This document shows, in pieces, positions 8,162 to 10,669 of a stretch of DNA of 64,000 bases (the first letter of the stretch is position 1; every line of letters starts with the position of its first letter). The stretch covers positions 1-64,000 of the forward strand of contig CALUNW010000010.1 of NCBI GenBank assembly GCA_944322145.1, written 5' to 3'. Under the pieces are notes generated by a model. It made no database searches. It was given only the letters and a program-made list of their open reading frames with translations, and was not told where the DNA came from. This DNA comes from an uncultured Atopobiaceae bacterium. Lineage in GTDB: Bacteria > Actinomycetota > Coriobacteriia > Coriobacteriales > Atopobiaceae. A program made the translations under genes and the position numbers.

Positions 8162-9448
8162 ATGCTCGACATCAAGTTCGTCCGCGAGAACCCCGACCTC
8201 GTCGACAAGTCGTGCGAGTCCCGCCAGAACGCCCACTGGGACCGCGAGAGGTTCTTCGAGCTCGACGAGGAGCGCCGCTCCGTCATCGCCGAGGTCGAGA
8301 AGCTCCAGGCCGAGCGCAACGCCGTCTCCAAGCAGATCGGGCAGCTCATGCGCGAGGGCAAGAAGGACGAGGCCGAGGCGGCCAAGGCGCAGGTCGCGGC
8401 CAACAAGGACCGCATCGCCGAGCTCGACGGCCGTCGCGGCGAGGTCGAGGACGCCCTCTTCGACCTGGTCTCCCGCATCCCCAACATCCCGCACGAGAGC
8501 GTGCCCTACGGCAAGGACGACTCCGACAACCCCGAGGTTCGCCGCTGGGGCACCCCGCGCGAGTTCGACTTTGAGCCCAAGGCGCACTGGGATCTGGGCC
8601 CCGCCACCGGCATGATCGACTTCGACCGCGGCGTCAAGGTCGCCGGCGCGCGCTTCTACGTGCTCGGCGGCATGGGCGCCCGCATGGAGCGCGCCCTCAT
8701 CAGCTTTATGGTCGACATGCACGTGAAGGCGGGCTTCAAGGAGTGGTGGATGCCCGTCATCACCAACCGCGAGACCCTCTTTGGCACGGGTCAGCTGCCC
8801 AAGTTCGAGGACGACCTCTACCACGTCAACCCCGACCTCTACCTCATTCCCACCGCGGAGGTCATGCTCACCAACCTCCATCGCGGCGAGGTGCTCGAGG
8901 CCAGCCAGCTGCCGCTGTGGTACACCGCGTTCACCCCGTGCTTCCGCGAGGAGGCGGGCTCTGCCGGCCGCGATACGCGCGGCATCATCCGCGTGCACCA
9001 GTTCGACAAGGTCGAGATGGTCAAGTTCGCCAAGCCCGAGGATTCGATGAACCAGCTTGAGAGCATGGTCGTCGAGGCCGAGGCCGTTCTCCAGGCGCTT
9101 GAGCTGCCGTATCACGTGGTGACGCTGTGCACCGGCGACATCGGCTTCTCCGCTGCCAAGTGCTACGACCTCGAGGTGTGGCTGCCCAGCTACAACGCCT
9201 ACAAGGAGATCTCCTCCTGCTCCAACTGCTGGGACTTCCAGGCGCGTCGCGCCAACATCCGCTACAAGGACCCGGCGGAGTTCAAGGGCACGCGCTATGT
9301 GCACACGCTCAACGGCTCTGGCCTCGCCGTTGGCCGCACCATGGCCGCCATCATGGAGAACTACCAGAACGCCGACGGCTCCATCACGGTGCCTGAGGCG
9401 CTGCGCCCCTACATGGGCGGCGTCGAGGTCATCAAGTCTGAGGCGTAG
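8162..9448 (+). CDS. serS: Seryl-tRNA synthetase
   Basis: 428 aa, the usual SerRS length. Residues 1-100 are the charged coiled-coil arm that contacts the tRNA-Ser variable arm. The catalytic core shows motif 2 ([21 protein letters not shown]) in a form typical of bacterial SerRS, and motif 3 as [18 protein letters not shown]. It charges tRNA-Ser with serine in the cytoplasm. Start ATG chosen because AAGGAG lies eight bases upstream and the protein opens with the canonical [14 protein letters not shown]. No T-box leader is seen. A terminator follows at 9460. Confidence 0.98.
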
Positions 9449-9459
9449 ACCGCCTAGAA

Positions 9460-9488
9460 GGTCGCTCGCGGGGCGGGCGGCCTTTTTT
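9460..9488 (+). terminator. Intrinsic terminator of serS
   Basis: GGTCGC (9460-9465) pairs with GCGGCC (9477-9482, one G-U) and is followed by six T. Confidence 0.75.
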
Positions 9489-9501
9489 GCGGCAGAGCAA
9501 A

Positions 9502-9528
9502 GAACACTTGTTCTAGGAACAAGTGTTC
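9502..9528. promoter_or_regulatory. Tandem LexA-type (SOS) operators
   Basis: GAACACTTGTTC (9502-9513) and GAACAAGTGTTC (9517-9528) each fit the Gram-positive/actinobacterial SOS box GAAC-N4-GTTC and are mirror images of each other, so the whole block 9501-9529 is one perfect palindrome around TAG. They overlap a promoter made of TTGTTC (9508-9513), an 18-bp spacer and TATACT (9532-9537), so bound LexA would block it. Confidence 0.8.
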
Positions 9529-9535
9529 TGATATA

Positions 9536-9558
9536 CTCGAGACAGAGGACGTCTCGAG
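9536..9558 (+). other. Hairpin in the leader of the SOS-box gene
   Basis: CTCGAGAC (9536-9543) pairs with GTCTCGAG (9551-9558) around a 7-nt loop, directly before the ribosome binding site AGAGGAG (9557-9563) with which it partly overlaps. It could limit translation until melted; function is inferred from position only. Confidence 0.4.
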
Positions 9559-9571
9559 AGGAGTGGTAAGG

Positions 9572-9928
9572 ATGCGGGGGCAGCTGGTTGCGCAGTTTGA
9601 GAGCGCTGGGGACGAGCGGAGGATGTTCGTTGCCACGGAGGGCGAGAAGTTCGTCGTGCGGGAGGAGCTCTCCGGGCCGTCGGTGCTCGTGGCGTACGGC
9701 AAGGAGCGAAAGACGCTCTGCGTGAGCCTGGAGGCGGATGCCGTCTCGGCGCTGATAGCGACTGTCGGCTTTCTCGGGTCGGGAGACTCCCTGTGGGACT
9801 ATCTCGCGAGCGAGCGCCATGACATCGTCGACCTGATGGACCTCTGCGACCAGCGGCGGATACCCTACGAGTTCAGCTCCATCGACTCGAGCGGGGACTG
9901 CCAGCTCAGACCGGCTGCCGCGCGCTAG
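9572..9928 (+). CDS. Unknown 118-aa protein, probably SOS-inducible
   Basis: I do not recognise the family. The 118-aa product has no membrane helix, no signal peptide and no cysteine cluster; it is mixed acidic/basic with a central hydrophobic stretch (about 60-72). The ATG at 9572 has AGAGGAG eight bases upstream; a GTG three codons earlier lies inside that ribosome site and is unlikely. The promoter is covered by two LexA-type boxes, so DNA damage control is the best clue to its job: candidates are a division inhibitor or a repair accessory protein. No DNA polymerase or other repair gene follows. It converges with the GntR gene and both stops share one CTAG. Confidence 0.75.
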   Translation: MRGQLVAQFESAGDERRMFVATEGEKFVVREELSGPSVLVAYGKERKTLCVSLEADAVSALIATVGFLGSGDSLWDYLASERHDIVDLMDLCDQRRIPYEFSSIDSSGDCQLRPAAAR

Positions 9929-10632
9929 GCGCGCCTCACGTCAAATTCAAAAGAGTTGCTCTCGCCGCGGTAGGTGGCTATCGAGTACTCGACGGGCGCC
10001 CCTTCCGCGTTCCGTGCGACCGTGTGAAAGAGCAGCAGGGGGTCTCCCTGCTCGACGTCGAGGAGCGCGGCGGACGCGCTGTCGGCCTTGATTGCCTCGA
10101 GACGCCTGCGAGCGCTCACGACGGGTTCACCACACTCCTCCATCGCCGCATAGAGACTCGTTGTGTTGAAGTCAAAGGAAGAAAGACCGGGATAGGGGTC
10201 GCAGGGAATATAGCTCTCTACAAAGACGTTGGGGACGTCGTCGGCGTAGCGCAGGCGAACGAGGCGGTATACCTGGGCGCCCTTCTTTAGGGCGAGGGCG
10301 TTGGCCACCTCCTCGCTTGCCTCCTCGCTTCTGAAGACGAGCACGTTGGTCTTGGGCATGCGCCCGATGAGGCGCATCGCGTCCTCGAAGCTGCTGATAG
10401 CCATCGTGAACGACTGGTCCACCTTGGGCATCGTCACAATGGTTCCACGCCTGCGGCGCTTCTCGAGGTATCCCGCCTCGGAGAGCAGCTTGAGCGCATG
10501 GCGCACGGTGGGTCTGCTCACTCCGTAGATCTGGGCAAGTTCGATCTCGGAGGGTATGGTCTGCCCCTCGGGATAGGTGCCGTCCTTGATCTTGGAGAGA
10601 AGGTCTTCTCGGATGCTTTCGTAGAGGGTCAT
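9925..10632 (-). CDS. GntR/HutC-family transcription regulator with UTRA domain
   Basis: 235 aa. Residues about 1-70 form the GntR winged helix (IPSEIELAQIYGVSRPTVRHALKLLSEAGYLEKRRRRGTIV), and residues about 85-230 form a UTRA ligand-binding domain. HutC-type members usually bind a sugar or sugar phosphate that releases DNA. The start at MTLYESIRED is preferred because the fold begins there and GAGG lies eight bases upstream; an in-frame ATG 16 codons earlier lacks a ribosome site. It is divergent from deoC-manA-rmlD and two inverted repeats lie in the shared promoter region, so it probably controls that operon and itself. Confidence 0.9.
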   Translation of the reverse strand: MTLYESIREDLLSKIKDGTYPEGQTIPSEIELAQIYGVSRPTVRHALKLLSEAGYLEKRRRRGTIVTMPKVDQSFTMAISSFEDAMRLIGRMPKTNVLVFRSEEASEEVANALALKKGAQVYRLVRLRYADDVPNVFVESYIPCDPYPGLSSFDFNTTSLYAAMEECGEPVVSARRRLEAIKADSASAALLDVEQGDPLLLFHTVARNAEGAPVEYSIATYRGESNSFEFDVRRA

Positions 10633-10669
10633 AGCCTGGGCCTCGCATGCAGAATCTATGAACATACAT

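Follow-up and report, generated by a model that had tools for sequence, protein, structure and literature searches.

Tandem LexA-type boxes upstream of a conserved 118-amino-acid protein gene point to a new putative SOS-regulated family in Atopobiaceae

The locus and its promoter

The window analysed here is the whole 64,000-nucleotide stretch of forward-strand DNA from the genome of an uncultured Atopobiaceae bacterium, and the gene of interest lies near its beginning. The seryl-tRNA synthetase gene serS (8162–9448, plus strand; Pfam PF00587 and PF02403) is the upstream neighbour of an open reading frame of 118 amino acids on the same strand (9572–9928), which starts with ATG at 9572, ends with TAG at 9926–9928 and is predicted to encode an acidic, soluble protein of an SOS-linked family. 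A GntR/UTRA regulator gene (9925–10635, minus strand; PF00392 and PF07702) follows; because it is convergent and the two ends overlap by four bases, no same-strand gene stands directly behind the 118-aa gene. Between 9925 and 11456 of the window, this regulator gene is arranged divergently from deoC, beside the putative SOS gene. Conservation in the genus and low dN/dS (about 0.06–0.39 in ten pairs, indicating purifying selection) identify the 118-aa frame as a real gene. It usually lies downstream of serS, and the presence of serS in 69 of 85 homologue loci argues for a single, vertically inherited locus. Conservation of serS extends over the whole family; the GntR/UTRA neighbour is retained in part of the genus only, and downstream neighbours vary among genomes.

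The sequence read from 9501 is AGAACACTTGTTCTAGGAACAAGTGTTCTGATATACT. It holds two predicted LexA boxes, to which no strand is assigned: the left box, AGAACACTTGTTCT, at 9501–9514 (core 9502–9513), with a perfect core and conservation among orthologues, and the right box, GGAACAAGTGTTCT, at 9516–9529 (core 9517–9528), also with a perfect core. As the initial annotation had described them, the two GAAC-N4-GTTC cores are 3 bp apart and each is the reverse complement of the other; the right box is an inverted copy of the left, and together they form one 13-bp inverted repeat around a 3-bp centre. Outside this pair the window has no perfect core. The 2.4-Mb genome contains 16 perfect cores in total, and a tandem perfect pair (spacer 1–12) occurs in it solely at 9501–9529, while the reversed control pattern gave none. 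When sites were scored with a matrix trained solely on lexA promoter sites from 30 related genomes (consensus ACGAACATATGTTCGT), the left box (21.4 bits) and the right box (18.3 bits) ranked first and second in the window, with the third site at 8.3 bits. Loose boxes, with one or two mismatches, are no more numerous in the 64-kb window than expected by chance; they were left out of the evidence, which therefore rests on the perfect pair and its conservation.

The right box overlaps the first T of an extended −10 element, TGaTATACT (9529–9537, plus strand), in which TG occupies 9529–9530 and TATACT 9532–9537; TGnTATACT beside the right box is retained in many genus-mates. The −35 element, TTGTTC (9508–9513), lies within the left box and is weak, matching at three of six positions, and a standard two-hexamer sigma-70 scan reported no promoter. 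Of the good promoter proposed initially, the extended −10 with its TATACT stands and the −35 does not. A reading of the region as an RNA element was set aside, since Rfam gave no match above cut-off in 9300–10100.

The LexA box of the lineage and its conservation

The genome encodes one LexA (TIGR00498, 225 bits), with the repressor domain PF01726 and the S24 protease domain PF00717, on a different contig from the 118-aa gene. Perfect or one-mismatch cores are found upstream of recA, ruvC, uvrB, a Y-family polymerase gene and the divergent lexA/LysM pair, and the recA and ruvC boxes score about 17 bits with the lexA-only matrix. Across 30 Atopobiaceae loci, every lexA promoter carries boxes, mostly three and nearly all with one mismatch; the lexA gene of the window's genome has three one-mismatch boxes, compared with two perfect ones at the 118-aa gene. 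The initial annotation had allowed for a LexA in this lineage that recognises another box; instead, lexA, recA and repair genes share this one. A literature search on LexA or the SOS regulon in Coriobacteriia found no paper, so the SOS response seems not to have been described for this order, whose members are common in the gut. A gut-metagenome study has dealt with SOS genes in Firmicutes and Actinobacteria (PMC3998124), and a text search of it found no mention of Collinsella or of any gene of unknown function. The present analysis yields a LexA box for the lineage together with a draft regulon.

Several further genes carry similar boxes. In the window's genome, LexA-like boxes lie upstream of two Gp49/HigB-type toxin-like genes (L203, with two one-mismatch boxes, and L206) and of a RhuM gene (L205), and an AAA ATPase gene (L049) has a perfect box nearby. 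In two order-level relatives (L197 and L199), a gene for a radical SAM protein stands behind tandem perfect LexA-type boxes; the product of L199 resembles that of L197, which is TIGR03916 (putative DNA modification/repair radical SAM protein). Two genus-mates (L194 and L195) have tandem boxes upstream of a DUF1016/YhcG-type gene, with a PDDEXK nuclease domain in L195.

The 118-aa protein is found in 29 of 30 genus-mates, and all genus orthologues have one or two boxes upstream, three of them with one-mismatch boxes only. A profile built from these orthologues matches homologues throughout Atopobiaceae and in a second family of the same order, f10; with a wider profile, the protein is present in 93 of the 104 Atopobiaceae genomes that are at least 90% complete, covering 22 of 28 genera. 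The 220 bp before the start contain a perfect box in 68 of 82 homologues and, when one mismatch is allowed, a box in 81 of 82, counts that come from related genomes and hence do not represent independent events; in the other 251 kb of these loci no perfect box occurs. These figures bear out the expected conservation of boxes and gene in relatives; one homologue, L131, lacks a box. Among distant homologues, 38 of 39 promoters reach 14.5 bits or more under the lexA-only matrix, which was built without them. Two perfect boxes spaced 15–17 bp apart occur in 18 homologue promoters, and in the 17 genus genomes that have a tandem perfect pair it is located at this gene in 15 and at DUF1016/YhcG-type genes in two. 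One genus-mate (G007:C1) has two copies of the gene, at 2083793–2084128 and 2173229–2173564. They score identically, face opposite ways and are separated by 89 kb near the contig end, which may reflect either duplication or an assembly fault.

At the family level, median identity is 28% for the 118-aa protein and 77% for LexA. The persistence of the boxes at 28% identity indicates that selection, rather than recent ancestry, maintains them. Almost all genomes have a LexA box here, including those in which the protein sequence is barely recognisable, and this argues for a core rather than an accidental SOS gene. A chance origin of the boxes is ruled out by the unique genome-wide pair, the homologue promoter counts and the lexA-only matrix. 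The boxes at 9501–9529 are thus supported as predicted LexA sites. The proposal that LexA controls the 118-aa gene gains from the single LexA, from the same box at SOS genes and from the co-conservation of box and gene in two families. On these grounds the gene is assigned to a new, putatively SOS-regulated family inside a known regulatory system.

The predicted protein

Searches of Pfam, NCBIfam, PHROG and PADLOC returned no family for the 118-aa product, in agreement with the earlier statement that it matches none known. A sequence search of solved structures returned only G-protein beta repeats (E 0.007 over 37 positions), a match judged to be due to chance, and a search of BFVD gave nothing at E 0.001. 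The family profile shows remote whole-length similarity to uncharacterised actinobacterial proteins such as L173 (E 2.2e-7). Together with L214, L173 forms a separate unannotated family of approximately 100–110 amino acids in other actinobacteria, and hhalign comparison of the L173/L214 pair with the family gave E 7e-6 and a probability of 84%. An origin in phages, plasmids or defence systems was rejected, as phage/plasmid records, PHROGs and PADLOC gave no match; one IMG/VR contig (L218) was left aside.

The family is strongly acidic, with a pI of about 4.5 in most members. Maximum 19-residue hydropathy in 69 members has a median of 0.97 and a highest value of 1.79, compared with 2.92 in the LysM protein, and by this measure none of the 69 has a clear membrane span with an extracellular part. 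An AlphaFold2 model based on 62 sequences is confident and compact (mean pLDDT 89, pTM 0.82). It runs from three strands through a short helix to a fourth strand, followed by three helices and a last pair of strands, with the short helix bearing a conserved GP..(Y/F)G motif. Conservation is highest at G35, D87, D90, D93, Y99 and R113. The three aspartates are one turn apart in predicted helix 85–94 and are retained in 92–97% of the 62 members; they are absent from the homologues in family f10 and so do not form a universal active surface. No residue is invariant across the whole family. Structural comparison with Foldseek and VIA-align gave weak, mixed matches with a best Z of 5.2, all below the level that the tool regards as meaningful. 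These candidates, none of which was accepted, included Ups1 (Z 5.2, rmsd 3.0, 74 residues), Pur-alpha (Z 4.4, rmsd 2.8, 55 residues) and the SAS-6/CCDC61 heads (about Z 4). Single-strand DNA binding of the Pur/PC4 kind was also set aside because of the strong acidity of the family.

Proposed role and comparison with known systems

We propose that the 118-aa gene constitutes a tightly repressed single-gene SOS unit. LexA dimers on the two adjacent near-perfect boxes would cover the −35 and the spacer as well as the margin of the extended −10, and repression would probably be tighter than at lexA, recA and ruvC, where boxes are single or degenerate. Following DNA damage, RecA* would trigger self-cleavage of LexA and the gene would be expressed; since its boxes deviate less from the ideal site than do the lexA boxes, expression would probably come late or only upon strong damage. 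Its product would be an alpha/beta protein of the cytosol, small and acidic, which most likely binds another protein and acts as a damage-checkpoint or SOS-modulating effector. Fast divergence and the lack of a family-wide invariant residue favour a binding protein over an enzyme. We give this reading a probability of about two in three; its regulatory part is predicted from sequence, and we infer LexA binding, induction by damage, effector action and the choice of target from the features set out above. A target in replication or recombination (a RecA- or polymerase-side modulator) is ranked somewhat ahead of one in division. A further step, which we put forward tentatively and hold to be possible rather than probable, is that the family is a lineage-specific DNA-damage checkpoint protein found throughout Atopobiaceae and f10, with a fold unmatched among solved structures and a novel mechanism acting on replication, recombination or division. 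The gene offers a sharp target for knock-out or expression work.

The initial annotation hinted at a division inhibitor, and this suggestion has been weakened by the lexA loci themselves. In all 30 Atopobiaceae lexA loci read (L219–L248), the gene divergent to lexA codes for a single-span membrane protein with a LysM-like part, and for the lexA neighbour in the window's genome (L031, G000:C2) Pfam confirms the LysM domain. SOS division inhibitors of the YneA/ChiZ/SosA type have a membrane span and usually a LysM domain, and lexA is a common neighbour of their genes (PMC6851548). The membrane+LysM gene is therefore probably the division inhibitor of the lineage, undescribed as far as could be found, and such a role is less likely for the 118-aa protein, which has no membrane segment. 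The latter could still be a second, cytosolic inhibitor that works in the manner of SulA on FtsZ besides the membrane LysM protein: its tight repression would fit a harmful product, it is soluble, acidic and fast-evolving, and SOS division inhibitors have little sequence in common with one another (PMC6851548). The usual Gram-positive slot is filled by the LysM-like gene, however, and no likeness in sequence or fold to any division inhibitor was found, which leaves a second inhibitor improbable. We would assign a similarly low likelihood to a RecA modulator like DinI or RecX, in which the acidic helix with D87, D90 and D93 would act as a DNA mimic and tune filaments. The uniform acidity of the family and the regular spacing of well-retained aspartates speak for such a modulator; against it, the aspartates are missing in f10, no DinI or RecX match was found and the argument is built on charge and spacing alone. 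No Pfam or NCBIfam model matched at all, and only scattered weak hits turned up in single members, an outcome compatible with a remote relationship to DinI.

Less likely again is a toxin-like or antitoxin-like protein silenced by LexA. The genome's other LexA-boxed genes include two of the Gp49/HigB type and one RhuM gene, and tandem boxes suggest a costly product; yet the 118-aa gene is alone between serS and the convergent GntR/UTRA gene, with no partner, it is inherited vertically at one place in a pattern neither patchy nor mobile, and searches of phage/plasmid records and of PADLOC did not find it. The least credible alternative, which we consider very improbable, concerns the operator and holds that a repressor other than LexA binds the inverted repeat. 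The single large 13-bp repeat would suit such a protein, and the LexA site is known here from sequence alone. Many homologues, however, retain a single box without the larger repeat, the core also stands in front of recA, ruvC and the lexA/LysM pair, and a matrix from lexA promoters alone puts these sites first.

Taken as a protein-binding effector under predicted LexA control, the 118-aa protein shows both similarities to and differences from known systems. The sequence of its boxes and their placement over the promoter are those of LexA-regulated (SOS) genes in Gram-positive bacteria and actinobacteria (box CGAACATATGTTCG), and, as in those genes, the box is common to recA, lexA, uvrB and the Y-family polymerase gene of the same genome; it departs from known SOS genes in having two perfect boxes instead of one degenerate box and a product in no known SOS family. 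YneA, ChiZ and SosA are likewise small, SOS-controlled and fast-evolving, whereas the 118-aa protein is predicted to be soluble and its gene lies behind serS and not beside lexA. DinI is also small, acidic and SOS-controlled, with an acidic stripe on a helix such as that predicted here; the 118-aa protein is longer, and the order of strands and helices in DinI differs from that in its model. L173 and L214, the remote actinobacterial relatives, are likewise uncharacterised in function and have neighbours unlike those of the 118-aa gene, and L173 has no LexA box upstream.
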